Shown: positions 2,149-41,331 of the stretch, piece by piece
Numbering within the stretch: position 1 is the first letter of the stretch
How the letters are laid out: every line of letters starts with the position of its first letter
From: a virus
Reading direction: 5' to 3' (one strand)
IMG/VR virus record: IMGVR_UViG_3300046011_002503
Span: 1-43,215 of that record
Length of the DNA: 43,215 bases
Notes under the pieces: generated by a model
Databases searched by the model: none
What the model saw: the letters and a program-made list of their open reading frames with translations, nothing else
Told to the model about the DNA's origin: nothing
Position numbers and translations under genes: made by a program

Positions 2149-2709
2149 ATGACAACTCTCGTCGGTATCCAAGGTCGTAATTGGGCGCTCTTGGGTGCCG
2201 ATACTCGCATTGCAGATGATTCAACAATTTACAGAATGGCAAAAGGTCATTCAAAAATTATTGAAAACGATAACTTTACAATCGCATGTGCAGGTGATGT
2301 GCGAGCAATCAACATTTTGCAATCTCAAATCAAACTGCCTAAAACTTTTGTTGCAAAAGATGATGGACATTTCATAACTGGATTTCTCATCCCAGCAATG
2401 CGTAAGGCTTTTGCAGATGCGGGCTACGAGAAAACTACGGAAGGGCAATCAAGTCATGAATCTGAATTTCTTATCGTCTACAACGGCAAGATTTATGAAG
2501 TCGGTTCTGATTACTCATGGGTACAAGATTCTCGCGGTATTTACGGACTTGGCTCAGGTGGCGCTATTGCTCTTGGTGCCTTGGCTTGTCTTAGCGGAGA
2601 TTTAGTAACTCGAGCAGAGGCTCGTAAATGGGCGAACAAGGCTCTTGAGATTGCATGTGAATACAACTCGGATTCTGCTCCACCGTTTCATATTGTAATT
2701 AAAGAATAA
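2149..2709 (+). CDS. Proteasome beta/HslV-like Ntn hydrolase
   Basis: Starting at the ATG at 2149 gives MTTLVGIQG. Removal of Met would expose Thr as the N-terminal nucleophile, as in HslV and mature proteasome beta subunits, so I prefer it to the in-frame start ten codons upstream. Counting from that Thr, Asp lies at position 17 (GADTR), exactly as in 20S beta subunits, and the lysine of HSKI (position 35) matches Lys33. Further family marks are AGDVRA, GSGG (S136) and a C-terminal DSA at 175-177 matching the catalytic Asp/Ser pair. The 186 residues are close to a mature beta subunit. No alpha subunit or ATPase gene is seen here, so it may self-assemble or join a host particle. The ribosome binding site is weak, which fits coupling to the deacetylase gene. 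Confidence 0.85.
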   Translation: MTTLVGIQGRNWALLGADTRIADDSTIYRMAKGHSKIIENDNFTIACAGDVRAINILQSQIKLPKTFVAKDDGHFITGFLIPAMRKAFADAGYEKTTEGQSSHESEFLIVYNGKIYEVGSDYSWVQDSRGIYGLGSGGAIALGALACLSGDLVTRAEARKWANKALEIACEYNSDSAPPFHIVIKE

Positions 2710-5680: not shown

Positions 5681-6409
5681 ATGACAAAAAAAATACTTTT
5701 CAAATCTTGTTATCCTTGGTTTTTTGAAGTTGCACCGAAACCAATCCCAGCAAGTAAAAATTTGCCTGATTGGTTTAGAAAAATGAGTCCCTATATGGTT
5801 ACACCAAATAATCCTTTGGGTAAGAGTTTTTCTCTTATGAACTTAACCGCAAACACTTCGGGGAAAAAATGTGTTCCTATGTTAGACGCTCTTACGAGTG
5901 GTTACTTAATACCTTTATGGAGCGATGTTTTTGTGGATGCTACAAGTGAATCAGAAATTCCCCGAATAACTTGGCGAGTATCGAGACCTGTTTTTGAAAT
6001 GCACGGCGACCAAACTCAAGGCGTAGAGGCACCCGAGGATTTTCACCAGCGACCCTTTAAGTATTTGAATTATTGGCGAATCATCACTCCACCTGGATAC
6101 TCAATTTTAGTAACTCAACCTTTTGGATTTAGGAATACAAATTTTCAAGCGATTCCCGCTGTCATTGACACGGATAAATCCAACCTACAAATTCTGTTTC
6201 CCCTTTGGATTAAAAAAGGTTTTAAGGGTGTTATTGAAAAAGGTACTCCAATTGCTCAAGTAACTCCTTTTAAGCGTGATAATTGGGAAGCCGAATACTC
6301 GACTTATTCTAACGATACAGATTATCAAAACTTAGAAGATAAGAACTTTAATGCACATCTAATCAATAATTACATGAGACGAGAGTGGTCTAAAAAAACT
6401 TATGAGTAA
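5681..6409 (+). CDS. DUF6065 family protein, copy A, 242 aa
   Basis: This is a paralogue of the gene at 28969-29670. Shared landmarks are a PxPAS block followed by LPDWF/IPEWY, KKCxPxxDxxTxGYxI, a TPPGYS/TPKGWS block, VDTD/IDTD, and the C-terminal GTPxxQVxPFKRxxW. The family (DUF6065, from memory) is seen in cyanophages and other aquatic phages and has no known activity. The conserved histidines and acidic residues around the central beta-rich part suggest a metal-binding or oxygenase-like cupin fold, but this is a guess. The gene is more A+T rich than its neighbours, which suggests separate acquisition. It ends one base before the convergent leftward nuclease gene. Confidence 0.8.
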   Translation: MTKKILFKSCYPWFFEVAPKPIPASKNLPDWFRKMSPYMVTPNNPLGKSFSLMNLTANTSGKKCVPMLDALTSGYLIPLWSDVFVDATSESEIPRITWRVSRPVFEMHGDQTQGVEAPEDFHQRPFKYLNYWRIITPPGYSILVTQPFGFRNTNFQAIPAVIDTDKSNLQILFPLWIKKGFKGVIEKGTPIAQVTPFKRDNWEAEYSTYSNDTDYQNLEDKNFNAHLINNYMRREWSKKTYE

Positions 6410-6410
6410 A

Positions 6411-6791
6411 TTAGAAACCCCGAGCCACCTGAAGCAAGTCTGTAACTTTTATTAGATAACCTTTTGAGTAGTTAGGCGGAATCGAACACTCAATTGGATG
6501 ACCGTACTTTTCAACGGTGTGCTTTAACTGCTCGGTAGGCACAATGAGCGCCATCGCCTCCAGCACGAAAGCCCAATGCGTCGCCTTGGTTGCCTGTAAT
6601 CCTGATGGATACCATTCGGAATTGTTGTCGCTCCAGCACCAAGTTTCGATGTAAAGGTTTCCAGTATTTCTCCAGCGCTTATCTCGCTTGACCTCAACAG
6701 TCTCGATGTTAAGTAAAGATTTAATGTAGGACTCACCCGCTTGTCCGTATCGTAAATCTAAATCAAAGTCAGAGCGCTTTACATCGTCCAT
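6411..6791 (-). CDS. PD-(D/E)XK-like nuclease, 126 aa
   Basis: After an N-terminal G-x-x-x-E (GQAGESY, about 16-22), the protein has VEVKRD (32-37) and then TGNLYIE (43-49), the core of a PD-(D/E)XK fold: E...xEVK-D...GNxxIE. WYPSGLQATKATHWAFVL resembles the W-x-SGI-x-TxAD-x-W block of small phage Holliday-junction-type or VSR-like nucleases. The start overlaps the end of the terminase gene by 13 bases. A role in DNA processing near packaging or recombination is likely; the exact substrate is not known. Confidence 0.65.
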   Translation of the reverse strand: MDDVKRSDFDLDLRYGQAGESYIKSLLNIETVEVKRDKRWRNTGNLYIETWCWSDNNSEWYPSGLQATKATHWAFVLEAMALIVPTEQLKHTVEKYGHPIECSIPPNYSKGYLIKVTDLLQVARGF

Positions 6792-8377
6792 GGATTTGTT
6801 TGTCCAATCGAAATAGGTGCAACGGTAGGGATAATGTTCTTGTTTTCATATACTGCGAGAAGTATCGCTTCGGCTCGGTCAGGGCTGTGAACGCCACGCC
6901 GTTTCATGTCAGCCTTGGCTTCAATCTGTATGCGACCTGACGAATCAGATTTATAGGTAGGTCCTGCTAACTGCGCCAAAACTTGTCTATCGACATCAAG
7001 GCGTAATTCCTGCCTGTCATCTCGAGGCTGCAAAAGGGTACGAGCGTTCCACCACATTTCTGCTCTTTGATTCTTGAACTTAGTTTGGTCTTTCGGCTTC
7101 TCAGCAACATTGACCCCAATAACCACCGCTCGCAATCCACGCTCTTTTACCCATCTATCTAAAAGGGAGACGACACCCCAGCCAACTCCAATCGTGTCAA
7201 TCTTGACGCGGACTAAATCCGATAAGCCTCTGTCTTTGTGAATGGCAACTGCCTTCTCAATCTCAGCAATGACCACACCAGCGACATCAACAGCGTTTGC
7301 ATTGACCTTGCCTGAACTGCGATGAATAATCGATGCGACATAACCATCCGCCTTTGCGATAACAAATTCATCTCCACCATCGGATGCAATATCCACACCC
7401 AATCGGATAACTGCGCTTTCCAGCATCTCTTCGTTTTGTGTTGCCAACTCAGCCCAATGGTAGGGAATGACCTTGCCTGTTCCCGTTTGTGGGAATCGTG
7501 CATGAACACGGGCTTCAACGAATGGAGAATCTTCTCCGAATTCGCTGATTACATCATCAACCCAAGTTTGGTCTACTAAGTGCGTTGCCACATCATGAGC
7601 CTCGACATGCGGTGGACATGACCGACATTGACCAGTCGCCTCACCCGTAAAGTTTGGTGTATCAAAAGCGCTAATCGGCAAAATGTTATAGAGCGGACTC
7701 GCACAGATTCTTTCAAACCATGACTGTTCTTGGTCTGTAGGCGGGTTTCCCAATACGAGAAGGCGTGTGTGTCCACCTGTCATGAGCGCTTCAAGTGCGC
7801 CACCAATCTTGTCTGAGATACCTCCAGCCTCATCAACCACAATCAATAAATGCGGTGCGTGGATACCCTGAACTGCTGCCTCATTATTATCGGCAGGACG
7901 GAAACCGTAGGCAACTACCGTGCCATCCATTTTCCATTCGGTAGTTAAAATCTCTCCAGGCAATTCATGGGATGTGTGAACTTTACGAATCTGCGCCCAC
8001 ATGATGTTTCTAACCTGTTTGAAAGTCGATGCCGTAGTAATCGCAATCGCTGTTCCAGGAGGATGAACTGAAATCCACCATGCAACGGCTCTTGCTGCTA
8101 AGTGAGATTTTCCAGGTGCGTGACATGCTGGCACTACTGTTCTTTTGTTATCGCGAATGGACTCAAGAATCTCGCGCTGCTTTGACCACAGACCTTCGCC
8201 TAATCCATCTTGAATGAATCCAACTGGGTCGTTCTCCCAGCGCCCCCACGGGTTATCAATCTCAGCATCAAGGATGACCGATAGCGCGTACTTCTCATCA
8301 TCTGTGAGTGAGAGATAAATCTTTGTTCGCTCTTCAGGTGTGGCATTGAGAACGAGGTCTACCAGCCGTTCACCCAT
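6779..8377 (-). CDS. terL: Terminase large subunit
   Basis: The 532-residue product has an N-terminal packaging ATPase: a variant Walker A CHAPGKS at 85-91, Walker B LLIVVDEA at 177-184, and a coupling motif LVLGN at about 207-211. The C-terminal RNase H-like nuclease starts at GVDIASDGGDE (D329) and ends with DRAEAILLAV. A CxxC (251-254) sits between the domains. It forms the motor that cuts and translocates DNA into proheads. It starts two bases after the small subunit stop with AAGAGG as ribosome binding site, so the two are co-translated. Confidence 0.95.
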   Translation of the reverse strand: MGERLVDLVLNATPEERTKIYLSLTDDEKYALSVILDAEIDNPWGRWENDPVGFIQDGLGEGLWSKQREILESIRDNKRTVVPACHAPGKSHLAARAVAWWISVHPPGTAIAITTASTFKQVRNIMWAQIRKVHTSHELPGEILTTEWKMDGTVVAYGFRPADNNEAAVQGIHAPHLLIVVDEAGGISDKIGGALEALMTGGHTRLLVLGNPPTDQEQSWFERICASPLYNILPISAFDTPNFTGEATGQCRSCPPHVEAHDVATHLVDQTWVDDVISEFGEDSPFVEARVHARFPQTGTGKVIPYHWAELATQNEEMLESAVIRLGVDIASDGGDEFVIAKADGYVASIIHRSSGKVNANAVDVAGVVIAEIEKAVAIHKDRGLSDLVRVKIDTIGVGWGVVSLLDRWVKERGLRAVVIGVNVAEKPKDQTKFKNQRAEMWWNARTLLQPRDDRQELRLDVDRQVLAQLAGPTYKSDSSGRIQIEAKADMKRRGVHSPDRAEAILLAVYENKNIIPTVAPISIGQTNPWTM

Positions 8378-28968: not shown

Positions 28969-29670
28969 CTATTTGTACTCTTTTCTTTGCCACCAAAATC
29001 TCTTATAGCGGTCAAAAAATACTGTGCCAAACTTTCGTGCGTCAAAGGCGTATTTCTTTTTTTCTCTTTCCCCACCTAACTCGGATGTCCAATTTTCTCT
29101 CTTGAAAGGAATCACTTGAACAAAGGGTGTTCCAGCAGGAATCATGCCTTCAAAATTAGGGTCGCGTAATTTAATAAACATGTTAAATGGCATCGAAAAT
29201 TCATCAGTATCTACAATTCCATTGGCTGTAATTATCGGAGTTGGTTCATGATGCTGGGGTTCGCAAATTAAAACTGACCAACCTTTAGGAGTTTTGATGC
29301 TCCAAGGATGAACAATCCTTACCGCGTAATTTATGTCTCGGGAGTACGGGTGATTTTGAAATTGCTCCATAGATTGAAAAGCAATGGCTTTCATTTCATT
29401 CCATTGAAAATAAGGACCTTCAGGAGTTTGGCGTACATAAATGTCATAGGGGGTCTCAATAATGTAACCAGCAGTCATTAAATCCCAAACAGGCATACAC
29501 TTTTTAATTGTGCTGTAAGGTCCATTATCTAATCTTGGTGCTTTTTTGCCGTCAGGTGAGGTGTAACTTTTTGCTTTTTTGTACCACTCAGGTATGTATT
29601 CTGAAGCGGGTTTTGGTTTTGCCAATACACCTTCAGGGTTATCTATGTCTGTAAAAATAATTTTATTCAT
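28969..29670 (-). CDS. DUF6065 family protein, copy B, 233 aa
   Basis: This is a paralogue of the gene at 5681, sharing KPxPAS, KKCMPVWDLMTAGYII, TPKGWS, VDTD and GTPFVQVIPFKRENW. Copy B also has HPYSRDINY and HEPTPIITANGI. The family has no known reaction. Here it lies between connectors and tail fibre genes, so it may be packaged or act late. Its ribosome binding site AGGGAGG is part of a small hairpin. Confidence 0.8.
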   Translation of the reverse strand: MNKIIFTDIDNPEGVLAKPKPASEYIPEWYKKAKSYTSPDGKKAPRLDNGPYSTIKKCMPVWDLMTAGYIIETPYDIYVRQTPEGPYFQWNEMKAIAFQSMEQFQNHPYSRDINYAVRIVHPWSIKTPKGWSVLICEPQHHEPTPIITANGIVDTDEFSMPFNMFIKLRDPNFEGMIPAGTPFVQVIPFKRENWTSELGGEREKKKYAFDARKFGTVFFDRYKRFWWQRKEYK

Positions 29671-35262: not shown

Positions 35263-36240
35263 TTAAGCGACGATTGTAGACCAGAAGTAACCAAGGTCAG
35301 CCGCGATAACCTTGTTATCGAAAGCCATTTCTGCTTCGATACGGTCTGACTTGATTGATTCCATACGGAACTGTGAAGTACCGATTGTCTGTCCAAGTCC
35401 GCCTGATACGCCAGTCCATGAGAATGTGTATCCAGCAGAAGGAGTCATTAGTCCTGGATTTGGAGCAACATGTGTTAGTAGAGCGCCCTTGCCATAAGCA
35501 AATGAGTAAGCCTCTGCTGCACCTTCGTTGTTCGTTGCCTTGACTGCCTTTGCAACCATAACGCGAGGAATGTCAAACATTGCTGCCAACATGTCGGTTG
35601 TGATTGTCTGTGAAGATGTGTACTTGATACGGTCTACCAAGTCAGGGTGATTCTTCAACTGACGGAATGTTTCGTAGCCAAGAACAAGTGTGTTGGCTTC
35701 CATTCCTGTGTTACCAAGAATCTCAGACTTTCCAGCCTCGATGTCATTGATTGGGTCTGAAGATGTGTAATCTGACCATTGCTTTGTCTCACCTGATGAT
35801 GGACTACCAGCAACACCAGTTACATCGTCTGCCCATACGCCTGTTGTAAAGAAATCAGAAACGAACTGAAGTTCCTTACGAAGCATTAGACGGCGTGTAA
35901 CGAACTCTGTTGCCTCACGGAGAGGGTTCAAAGGAGCATCTGCGTTTGCAGTAGTTTGGTCATCAACATCCTTATGGAAAGCCCATACATCTGCTGAATA
36001 TGTACCTGTTGAAAGGTTGTAACCTCCACCAGCAGATTCAGTTCCAGGCGCACGGCGTTGAGCCTCATCGCGGAACCAATCGTTCTTGGTGTAAGTGAAA
36101 TACTTGTCAGACTTCTTATCCACAGGAATTACTGGGAATACCTTGTCTGCAATGAAGTTGTCCTGATTTTGTAGGTATGCAACTGAGATGTTTGTCAGAA
36201 TTGCATCAACATGGACGGAGTTAATATGTGGCTGTGGCAT
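35263..36240 (-). CDS. Major capsid protein (HK97 fold)
   Basis: The 325-residue product starts with a helical N-arm (INSVHVDAILTNISVAYLQNQDNFIADKVFPVIPVDKKSDKYFTYTKNDWFRDEAQ), contains the helical spine FVTRRLMLRKELQFVSDFF, a P-domain with ANTLVLGYETFRQLKNHPDLVDRIKY, and ends SDRIEAEMAFDNKVIAADLGYFW. These are features of the phage major capsid E-like group. It forms the icosahedral shell. It has a strong ribosome binding site (AAGGGGGAAC) and lies between the decoration gene and a hairpin. Confidence 0.92.
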   Translation of the reverse strand: MPQPHINSVHVDAILTNISVAYLQNQDNFIADKVFPVIPVDKKSDKYFTYTKNDWFRDEAQRRAPGTESAGGGYNLSTGTYSADVWAFHKDVDDQTTANADAPLNPLREATEFVTRRLMLRKELQFVSDFFTTGVWADDVTGVAGSPSSGETKQWSDYTSSDPINDIEAGKSEILGNTGMEANTLVLGYETFRQLKNHPDLVDRIKYTSSQTITTDMLAAMFDIPRVMVAKAVKATNNEGAAEAYSFAYGKGALLTHVAPNPGLMTPSAGYTFSWTGVSGGLGQTIGTSQFRMESIKSDRIEAEMAFDNKVIAADLGYFWSTIVA

Positions 36241-38035: not shown

Positions 38036-38427
38036 AGTGTTGAAACCTTATGTCCAACTTTTGTATCAGTTGGCTTACCATCACGGTACAACTGAATCAA
38101 GGCTGCTGGGTCATCCTCTGTTCCCTCAATCTCAAAACTTGAGTCAGGAACATTGATTTTGCCCTCGCGCACAATGCGGACAATCTTGCCTCTAGCCGTA
38201 CCACCTGATGAATTCCAAGAAACCATGTCACCAGTCGATACAGAAAGCGCCTTTTTCATTGAATAAGCCATATCACGCATAGCCTTTTCAATCATTGACT
38301 TTGCATAGCCTTTAAGACCTTTGATGCCCTTTTCATGAACTTCTTTTTCAATCATCGCGTATTCATCGTCCTTCATGTTTTTCATAGGACCATTGCGAAG
38401 TTCTTTGAGGATTTTGTCGTCTTTCAT
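38023..38427 (-). CDS. Head protein with HVA1/DUF2945-type Tudor domain, 134 aa
   Basis: The N-terminal ~60 residues are charged and helical (MIEKEVHEKGIKGLKGYAKSMIEKAMRDMAYSMKKAL). Residues about 63-134 (VSTGDMVSWNSSGGTARGKIVRIV...EDDPAALIQLYRDGKPTDTKVGHKVSTLKK) match the hypervirulence-associated Tudor domain (DUF2945, PF11160). Its last codons form a -1 frameshift site. It overlaps the protease gene by ATGA. Role unknown; fusion of this domain to proteases and portal-region proteins is known to me from actinophages. Confidence 0.8.
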   Translation of the reverse strand: MKDDKILKELRNGPMKNMKDDEYAMIEKEVHEKGIKGLKGYAKSMIEKAMRDMAYSMKKALSVSTGDMVSWNSSGGTARGKIVRIVREGKINVPDSSFEIEGTEDDPAALIQLYRDGKPTDTKVGHKVSTLKKA

Positions 38428-39125
38428 TTGGTTTCCTTTGGTTTCTTTTTCTTCGGATTCATAATTGTATCAACATGCACATCGGTAACAGTCGGGTCGT
38501 TCTTTTCCATGTCCACATAAAGTCTCTCTGCTTTTCCACCAATCGAATAGCCAAGAATCTCTCCGCGTTGAATCTTCTCCCATGCCCACTCTTCCCAAAT
38601 AACTCCTAGAAATACGGTGTTTGCTGGATAAGTATGATTGACGGTAATTCCACTTGGGGTTGTAATTGGAACTGTTAGTTCGTATGGGAATGACATAACT
38701 TCAACCCATTCACCTGCAACGATGTCGCGATTATGTTGCAATCGGATACGGCGGTCATTGCTTCGGACATAATCCCAAACTGCTCTTTGCAACTCCTCGG
38801 CATCTGTCCATTCATTGTGTGCATCTAATCTGTCAGGGATGTACATGGCTCCAAGGGTGTAGCGCTTGTCGCCCTCAGCCTTAGAAACCTCGTAGGAGCC
38901 AATAGATTTAGCCATTGTTTCGAAAGCATTAGGGAAGGTCTTTTGAGCCAACTCAGGAGTAATCTCCTCAAGGTTCTTCTCGCCAAAGACTAGGTATTCA
39001 GCAACAACATCAGATGGCGTCCAGTTAGGCGCATCCCAGCGCTCTTCAAGAATCTTGTTTGGCTGTACCTCAAAGCGCCATAGAGTATGTGGCTCATTAC
39101 GGTAAAAGTTTACAAAGTATCGCAA
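38424..39125 (-). CDS. XkdF-like prohead protease, 233 aa
   Basis: The C-terminal region ANTVFLGVIWEEWAWEKIQRGEILGYSIGGKAERL (about 170-204) is the conserved block of XkdF-type phage serine proteases, and VAGEWVEVMSFPYELTVPI with NDRRIRLQHN precedes it. I start at TTG 39125 because the strong GAGAGGAGGG lies just upstream, although frame-compatible starts further upstream exist (ATG 39146). It should cut the scaffold and possibly the HDQ-motif head proteins. Confidence 0.8.
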   Translation of the reverse strand: MRYFVNFYRNEPHTLWRFEVQPNKILEERWDAPNWTPSDVVAEYLVFGEKNLEEITPELAQKTFPNAFETMAKSIGSYEVSKAEGDKRYTLGAMYIPDRLDAHNEWTDAEELQRAVWDYVRSNDRRIRLQHNRDIVAGEWVEVMSFPYELTVPITTPSGITVNHTYPANTVFLGVIWEEWAWEKIQRGEILGYSIGGKAERLYVDMEKNDPTVTDVHVDTIMNPKKKKPKETK

Positions 39126-39129
39126 TTTA

Positions 39130-41331
39130 TTAAGCCCTCCTCTCATGGGATAGTTTACCAACTGGGGTTGATTTAATCAAGCCCGCCTGTTGCGCTGTCT
39201 CAAACTGCTGCAAGATGAGTGTTCCGACCCCAAGAACTGTTGTGTAGTTAGAAGGGCGAGGAACTCGCTTGGCAATACCTACCATCTTGTTCCAAGTGGA
39301 CTCTCGGACAGAATCATCTGTGGACTTTCGGTAAACATCATAAACATCATGCAAAGTCTTTTCCTTAATTTGGTACGACTTTGGCGTGTGAACTTGAACC
39401 TCAACTTTAATGCCGTCGCGCTCTGCCTTTACATTGACTCCATCATAAGGGTCGCCCGATTGCCAAAAATTCTTAACTCGAACTTTCCATCCAGTTTCTT
39501 CAAACGCTGAAACTGTAGATTTCAATGTATCTGCATAATCATTATCATTGACAGAGATTGTGTAACGGTTAGCATCTGAGATTTCCTCTGCTGCCTTGTT
39601 TCTATCGCCCTGATATTCCTTCTCTGCATCGAGGTCAATCTTTCTTGAAAGAGAATCTGTTGATTTGATTCGCTGTGATAAGCCCTCAAGTTTTGCACCT
39701 GACTGGTCGGCAATTGCTTGAACTAATTTTGTGATGGCTGGTTCAGCAGCAACCGCTCTTTCTCTTACTCCGCGAGCAAGAGCAATCGCTTCTTTTGACT
39801 GTCCCTGTTCAGGCTCTTTATCTGCAACAGCGTTGTTTGCCCATGAGCCGTGAGTGCGTTGGTCATGGTCTCCGTGCTTTTCGAGAGGTTCCCATAGGAG
39901 TGATTTCTTAGCAGGTGCATCAATTGCTTGACCTTCAAAACCATTGTCCTTTGACCACTTTGAAGAAATGTCTAACGCTTCTTGCGCTGTAACTGATAAA
40001 CGGTAAACAGGTAATTTAGTGCCAGGATTATCGAAAGCAAAGGCAACAGCAGCACCCCATGTGTGGTGTCCATCTACGACAAAGCCATCTTTTGAAATCA
40101 AAATTCGTTCATCGGCTGGGATTCCACCATCTTCGCGGAACTTGTTATAGATAGCACCTGAACGAGCAGCAGAGATTTCTTTTTGAATTGGCTTCAAAGT
40201 TGTAGGGTCAATCTCTTCAGCCGTAGATGAAACACCTTGTCCTTTGTCAATCTCCGCCAAGAAGCGAGCGCGTTCCTTGCCAGGAATTTGTGGCATATCT
40301 TTACGGGCAATTCCCATACCTTCATCGCCGTAGAGCAATGTTCCTTCAACGCTTATCTCAGTCAAATCAGGGTGGTCTGTGCGCTTAGCAGCACTCATTA
40401 AAAATGCTGAAACATTTTCTTTCTCAACTGTCGGATGCTTTCCAGCAAAGATTGCATCTGCGATTCCGTCTGCCCATGAGCCATGAGTTTTTTGGTCATG
40501 CTTGCCTGGGTTATGTTTTGCAACTTCTTCGTCTCTTTCGGCGCGAGCAACCATGGACTCAGCCCATGCAAATCCTGCATCTCCGCCCCAAGCATCCCAA
40601 GCAACTCGACCTGGAGATGGATAGCCCTTTTCGCCTTGACTAAATCCGAGTGCGTTCTTGTCTACTTCATGGCGTGAGAAAAAAGATTTCATTCGCTTGA
40701 GAGTTTCTAATGAGACAGATTCTCCTGAAGCCAACTGCGATGCGCGGGCGCGACCAACTGAAGTAAATCCTCCGCCAGCCTTGCCTTCGCTAATCCAATC
40801 GAGTGCGCGACGGGCAGCGGTACGAACTGCCTTCGGTGGAGTGTTATCTGCCTTTGAGAATCTTTCGATTTGTGCAAGGCGCTCTTCAGCCTTTTCCTTT
40901 GATGGATAAGTTCCAAACTTGCGTCGTCCTGACGAATCGTAAACCGTGAACTTGCCATCCTCTTCACGAATCATCTTCTCGATAGGGTCTAACTCAATCG
41001 GTTCGATTCGCATTTCATAACCTTGAGAGGTTAGGAAAGTCTGTACATTGCCAACATTGCTACCGCTAGATTTGATGACCTCTGCAACCATCTCGGCTGG
41101 CAAAGAAGAGCCAAGGGATGTCAGGTCTACATCGTTAATTGAATCAACGAGAATCTCGTACTCATCCCATTCATCCTGTGGAGCCTCCATCTTGCGACGA
41201 GCCAACTCATTGAGGATTGTGTGGTGAACTTCGATTGTCGCTGAATTGGCTTGAGACTTATGGATACGCTCATGAAGCGCGAGTAGTTTCTCAGCGCTTA
41301 AAGAAATTAACTTTGGGGCTATGTCCGCCAT
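39130..41331 (-). CDS. Mosaic head protein: two HDQxTHG motifs, ParB-like and RelA/SpoT-like domains, 733 aa
   Basis: Order of modules: helical N-terminus; EEDGKFTVYDSSGRRKFGTY (123-142); a conserved phage domain with RTAARRALDWI...ERMK-type helix and AWDAWGGDAGFAWAESM (about 168-260); first motif HDQKTHGSWA (278-287); a ParB-like domain with FVVDGHHTWGA (417-427); second motif HDQRTHGSWA (489-498); and a C-terminal RelA/SpoT synthetase-like fold (about 535-670) with RIKSTDSLSRKID, DANRYTISV, NFWQSGDPYDGVN and VEVQVHTP. The last resembles (p)ppGpp synthetase or toxin-like nucleotidyl transferases. I cannot tell whether it is active. It lies beside the protease, so it is probably an internal head protein; these can be ejected into the host. 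Confidence 0.75.
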   Translation of the reverse strand: MADIAPKLISLSAEKLLALHERIHKSQANSATIEVHHTILNELARRKMEAPQDEWDEYEILVDSINDVDLTSLGSSLPAEMVAEVIKSSGSNVGNVQTFLTSQGYEMRIEPIELDPIEKMIREEDGKFTVYDSSGRRKFGTYPSKEKAEERLAQIERFSKADNTPPKAVRTAARRALDWISEGKAGGGFTSVGRARASQLASGESVSLETLKRMKSFFSRHEVDKNALGFSQGEKGYPSPGRVAWDAWGGDAGFAWAESMVARAERDEEVAKHNPGKHDQKTHGSWADGIADAIFAGKHPTVEKENVSAFLMSAAKRTDHPDLTEISVEGTLLYGDEGMGIARKDMPQIPGKERARFLAEIDKGQGVSSTAEEIDPTTLKPIQKEISAARSGAIYNKFREDGGIPADERILISKDGFVVDGHHTWGAAVAFAFDNPGTKLPVYRLSVTAQEALDISSKWSKDNGFEGQAIDAPAKKSLLWEPLEKHGDHDQRTHGSWANNAVADKEPEQGQSKEAIALARGVRERAVAAEPAITKLVQAIADQSGAKLEGLSQRIKSTDSLSRKIDLDAEKEYQGDRNKAAEEISDANRYTISVNDNDYADTLKSTVSAFEETGWKVRVKNFWQSGDPYDGVNVKAERDGIKVEVQVHTPKSYQIKEKTLHDVYDVYRKSTDDSVRESTWNKMVGIAKRVPRPSNYTTVLGVGTLILQQFETAQQAGLIKSTPVGKLSHERRA

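Follow-up and report, generated by a model that had tools for sequence, protein, structure and literature searches.

A predicted proteasome-fold Ntn hydrolase encoded beside a deacetylase gene in a putative virus of freshwater actinobacteria

Many actinobacteria possess a 20S proteasome, and the rings of BPH and HslV form without alpha subunits. Proteasome homologues of phages are known from the work of Fuchs, Alva and Lupas (2021; PMC8665760), and some in cultured phages are annotated as 'protease'. That study reported no AAH in an actinobacteria-specific phage and no gene neighbourhood from which a function could be read.

The window described here is the whole of a 43,215-base virus record with tailed-phage genes. 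It carries a gene for a predicted proteasome-like hydrolase next to a deacetylase gene, and the local arrangement is as follows.

1212–2138, + strand: histone-deacetylase-superfamily protein of 308 amino acids (PF00850, E = 2.5e-55)
2139–2148, + strand: intergenic gap of 10 bases, deacetylase to hydrolase
2149–2709, + strand: proteasome-like Ntn hydrolase of 186 amino acids, start MTTLVG, predicted nucleophile Thr2 after removal of the Met
2762–2944, + strand: next gene downstream of the hydrolase, encoding a 60-amino-acid protein whose single hydrophobic segment probably spans the membrane (judged by eye)

The hydrolase gene and its predicted active site

The ORF call places the hydrolase frame at exactly 2149–2709 on the + strand with an MTT start and the deacetylase frame at 1212–2138, leaving ten bases between them; the original prediction was correct on the hydrolase frame, its start and the ten-base gap. 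An upstream TTG exists at 2119; the conserved protein starts at the ATG (M-T-T), and no propeptide precedes Thr1. The product matches PHROG 1040, 'peptidase HslV family', with an E value of 1.1e-23, and falls barely past the family cut-off for Pfam Proteasome (PF00227, 8e-5). It is already known to databases, as a viral protein in BFVD (UniProt A0A1B0XTP6) is 92% identical to it and of equal length. Both genes are under purifying selection, with a median dN/dS of about 0.09 (hydrolase) and 0.07 (deacetylase). In-frame stops are apparent in some homologue matches, but when three of these (L114, L141 and L122) were read the proteins proved to be intact, the appearance arising because the profile match extends beyond the stop.

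Structure prediction had been proposed as a check on the original prediction. The AF2 model, calculated with an alignment of 43 relatives, has a pLDDT of 93.3 and a pTM of 0.90 and contains the proteasome beta-sheet core with helices H1–H4, without the C-terminal S12/H5. The helices span residues 51–60, 72–90, 138–148 and 155–172, and the chain stops after a strand at 180–185. A Foldseek search of the PDB with this model returned BPH as the top fold (5ovt/5ovs; E = 1.8e-11, TM about 0.8), and a profile of the 43 relatives, compared with the sequences of solved structures, placed BPH first (5ovu, 1e-13) and HslV next. As judged from the sequence and the predicted structure, 2149–2709 is a real gene for a proteasome-fold Ntn hydrolase.

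Most of the catalytic residues that had been proposed are present and are conserved across 172 unique homologues. Thr1 and Asp17 (Thr2 and Asp18 in the window) are each invariant (172/172), Lys33 (window Lys36) is kept in 171 of the 172 and Gly47 (window Gly49) in 170, and the Ser129 position (window Ser136, in the GSGG motif) is occupied by Ser in 158 homologues and Thr in 14. The further suggestion that a DSA motif represents Asp166/Ser169 did not hold. Asp is found in the Asp166 column in 156 of the 172 homologues, but Asn (Asn173 of the window) takes its place in the window and throughout its close clade, so that the canonical position is not that of Asp175 in the DSA.

In yeast beta5 the substitution D166N strongly reduces activity, while Thr1 remains reactive (PMC4792962). 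Asn173 across the window's clade is a natural counterpart of this mutant and, given the yeast result, the window enzyme may be a slow hydrolase or a specialized one. One such alternative is a highly specific or transpeptidating enzyme, in which the Asn in place of Asp166 may tip the balance from hydrolysis towards acyl transfer. The slowed turnover of the yeast mutant, with Thr1 still reactive, would suit it, and there is a precedent among proteasome homologues in connectase, which is a ligase (PMC8665760). We nevertheless consider this improbable, given that Asp is retained at this position in most homologues, including other deacetylase-linked ones, and that the predicted secondary structure contains no connectase-like insertion.

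Pairing with the deacetylase and exchange of the hydrolase

A deacetylase-seeded scan gave 80 deacetylase loci, which come from related phages and are not independent of one another. A hydrolase lies downstream in 75 of them, three are cut by contig ends and two (L080 and L095) are without one; thus, of the 77 loci whose contigs extend far enough, 75 carry it. Among the 75 paired loci the hydrolase is no more than 60 bases away in 56, is separated from the deacetylase by a GP88 gene (PF17338) in 15 (L029, L043, L053 and 12 others) and by an AdoMet decarboxylase gene in four (L039, L049, L052 and L093; PF02675, 2.3e-12 for L052). An ORF related to the 60-residue protein at 2762–2944, for which there was no Pfam match, lies downstream in 46 deacetylase loci.

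The deacetylase match in L080 is limited to residues 1–230 and is followed by unrelated sequence, reflecting either a deletion or an assembly join. No recognized hydrolase lies next to the deacetylases of the more distant phages Magritte, E3 and L095; gp203 of Rhodococcus phage E3, which follows its deacetylase gene, was considered and rejected, as its translation of 160 amino acids lacks an MTT start and does not look like the hydrolase. Deacetylase matches were also noted in the Staphylococcus phage records OR844993, OR849944 and MG543995, one of which is 4,272 bases long; these are possibly host sequence.

The metal ligands and the catalytic His-His/Tyr residues of the deacetylase (His121, His122, Asp157, His159, Asp238 and Tyr279) are invariant in 23 sequences. 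Its AF2 model (pTM 0.89) lies nearest in Foldseek to 5ji5, HDAC8 and bacterial lysine deacylases; the best 50 folds comprise a Burkholderia HDAC-superfamily protein, HDAC8, other HDACs, HDAH and lysine deacylases, and none of these 50 is an acetylpolyamine amidohydrolase by name. The proximity to HDAC8 and the lysine deacylases favours protein deacetylation over polyamine deacetylation. This bears on the possibility that the genes form a polyamine module, in which an acetylpolyamine amidohydrolase would work alongside an AdoMet decarboxylase and the Ntn hydrolase would control one of the pathway enzymes. Virus-encoded acetylpolyamine amidohydrolases are known (PMC9992855) and would provide a precedent, and the decarboxylase gene does occur at the junction in 4 of the 80 loci. 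However, an AdoMet decarboxylase was found in only one of 17 phage records searched. As the decarboxylase occurs in few of the loci and the modelled deacetylase is nearer to lysine deacetylases, we have rejected the polyamine module, which seems to us very unlikely.

Superposing the window on the L023 locus reveals an abrupt break. The deacetylase genes share 88% nucleotide identity, the stretch 2165–2714 cannot be aligned and the alignment returns from 2715 at 79%, yet each virus encodes a hydrolase within the unalignable stretch, the two proteins being about 31% identical. Comparable breaks separate L019 from L028 and L089, and L050 from L043. In the tree the deacetylase-linked hydrolases are polyphyletic, with eight changes, at least four of which are forced by well-supported branches. 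Taken together, the alignments and the tree indicate that the hydrolase at the deacetylase slot is replaced by homologues of roughly 30% identity.

Conserved pairing in related phages had been named as a check on the original prediction. It was found in the 75 of 80 deacetylase loci described above but is not universal, as many actinophages carry the hydrolase without the deacetylase. Replacement with the pair retained argues for cooperation between the protease and the deacetylase; the case for positional inertia comes from recombination in the flanking genes and from the many phages that carry the hydrolase without the deacetylase. On the latter reading the pairing is merely positional: the hydrolase would be a mobile accessory gene at a permissive site, kept there by flank recombination, and the two enzymes would have separate roles. 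The insertion of GP88 and AdoMet decarboxylase genes at the same junction is consistent with this, as is the presence of the hydrolase elsewhere in a lysis cassette on a related tail–endolysin backbone and in a slot next to the portal gene. It accounts less readily for the presence of a hydrolase of this one family in nearly all evaluable loci even though the members of the family found there represent several clades. We regard positional pairing as a substantial possibility, somewhat short of an even chance; it concerns the pairing alone and is compatible with the threonine-protease explanation of the enzyme that is given below.

Were the two enzymes to cooperate, the deacetylase would strip acetyl groups from host or phage proteins that the adjacent ATP-independent proteasome-like chamber would then destroy or trim, and the protease module would be swapped between phages as targets change. 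We put forward this deacetylate-and-degrade unit tentatively and rate it as unlikely.

Other genomic contexts and phage hosts

Profile searches of viral contigs yielded more than 560 relatives of the hydrolase; as these searches were seeded with the hydrolase family, the contexts described here should not be taken as an unbiased sample. In one group of roughly 40 kb phages, represented by 51 collected loci, the hydrolase gene lies directly behind the portal gene (for example L104, L107, L111, L114, L121, L141, L150 (G001–G006) and L014, several with WhiB). The slot after the portal gene is the usual location of the prohead protease. Tailed-phage genes of the window include the following.

6779–8377, − strand: terminase
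35263–36240, − strand: major head protein
38424–39161, − strand: XkdF-type (Peptidase_S78_2) prohead protease

The original prediction allowed that the enzyme might process phage proteins, and a virion-assembly protease or virion component acting on capsid or ejection proteins would be one form of this. The portal-linked loci favour it, and in G001 there is no other recognized prohead protease from the portal gene to the major head protein gene. In the window phage, on the other hand, the hydrolase lies outside the structural module and, because the phage has its own XkdF-type protease, a prohead-protease role is unlikely; similarly, in Microbacterium phage LeeroyJenkins gp16 is the hydrolase and gp25 is annotated as a capsid maturation protease. 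As a general explanation we consider the virion protease quite unlikely and have rejected it for the window phage, while retaining a threonine-type head maturation protease as possible in the portal-linked group.

A third context is found in phages whose tail and lysis region is related to that of the window. Here the hydrolase gene is part of the lysis cassette, with holin-like genes before it and, where the contig is long enough, an endolysin gene related to that of the window after it (L212, L224, L227, L228 and L233). A search for the deacetylase in 23 records found 22 without it, and the sole match, G035, belongs to a deacetylase-linked locus (L250). Each of the 19 records searched for copy number carries exactly one hydrolase gene (19/19).

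Of 19 related phage records, 17 carry a WhiB gene. Although it is not found in the window fragment, it is carried by the near relative G013, whose hydrolase is 96% identical to that of the window. The presence of WhiB in related phages points to actinobacterial hosts and, with the PHROG 1040 match and the predicted fold, upholds the proposal of a proteasome/HslV-like Ntn hydrolase in an actinobacterial phage. The nearest cultured relatives of the window terminase are from Arthrobacter phages (53–57% identity). We take the window virus to be one that infects freshwater actinobacteria. Cultured relatives with the hydrolase are LeeroyJenkins, Arthrobacter phage Pitbull (gp77) and Actinomycetia phage DSL-LC01, in which the function can be tested. 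Elsewhere in the window, 5681–6409 and 28969–29670 encode proteins that appear by eye to be related, the first with a weak match to DUF6065 (6.3e-4).

Comparison with known proteasome homologues

The original prediction raised the possibility of a beta subunit that would join the host proteasome. Such a beta-type subunit would dock on the host alpha ring or replace PrcB, the bacterial 20S beta subunit, and so redirect pupylation-dependent proteolysis. The actinobacterial hosts speak for this, as do catalytic residues like those of beta subunits, and the window hydrolase shares the proteasome fold and Thr1 chemistry with PrcB. It differs from PrcB in having no propeptide, no alpha partner gene that we could see and no match to the NCBIfam model 20S_bact_beta (TIGR03690), which was weakly matched by 12 of the 43 relatives (best 1.5e-4). 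Scores against the NCBIfam archaeal beta models were far under their cut-offs, and the curated cut-offs of the NCBIfam HslV models were not reached either (NF003964, 19.6 bits against 137; TIGR03692, 17.3 against 157.75). Pup (PF05639) was absent from 17 related phage records, with Corynebacterium glutamicum positive as a control, and an HslU/ClpX-type AAA_2 ATPase (PF07724) was found neither in the window nor in 16 further phage records, with all 14 control genomes positive. With no propeptide, Pup or ATPase of this type found, and with BPH and HslV as the nearest relatives, partnership with the host alpha ring is unsupported; we have rejected it as the main reading and give it very little credence indeed. 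A search of cellular genome contigs with a short-form profile gave a single weak match, in Alkalibacterium.

By profile similarity and modelled fold the window hydrolase instead groups with the HslV/BPH-like (group I) homologues and not with the actinobacterial 20S beta subunit PrcB. The interpretation that we favour, with moderate confidence, is that it is a self-compartmentalizing threonine protease of this group that acts as an exchangeable accessory infection factor. Host methionine aminopeptidase would strip Met1 and expose the catalytic Thr, after which the subunits would self-assemble into a ring chamber with neither a propeptide nor alpha subunits. The chamber would be either ATP-free or dependent on a borrowed host unfoldase, and may degrade or trim host or phage proteins during infection. 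In the window's lineage it would be expressed from one operon with the lysine-deacetylase-type enzyme, presumably by co-transcription, and the two may act on a common target; at the deacetylase slot the protease module can be swapped for distant homologues. Natural replacement, together with a single copy in each of the 19 records searched, is documented for a hydrolase family in phages of freshwater actinobacteria. Within the open-licence papers searched, the deacetylase pairing, the replacement at this slot and the portal-adjacent group are undescribed, and all three appear to be new.

PHROG 1040 is matched by the window hydrolase and also by the portal-linked form (7.8e-22), although the match spans about half of the profile (14–154 of 277) and the function of that family is annotation only. 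BPH (5ovs/5ovt/5ovu) is the closest described system, being the top match by both fold and profile over the full length and having the Thr1/Asp17/Lys33 pattern in common with the window enzyme. It differs in that the identity is about 20%, in that its gene is bacterial and chromosomal and in that it keeps Asp166 where the window has Asn. PPH and AAH (PMC8665760) are likewise group I homologues borne by tailed phages and have the active-site pattern in common. PPH, however, has about 140 amino acids and no helix H2 (PMC8665760), whereas the window hydrolase has 186 amino acids and four helices, the second being 72–90; the four helices and the lack of a C-terminal extension place it in group I and not with PPH. 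Compared with AAH, as that paper describes it, the family reported here is found in actinophages and has a conserved gene context. It recurs in three settings, the deacetylase pair, the lysis cassette and the portal slot, where the earlier study (PMC8665760) found none that hinted at function.
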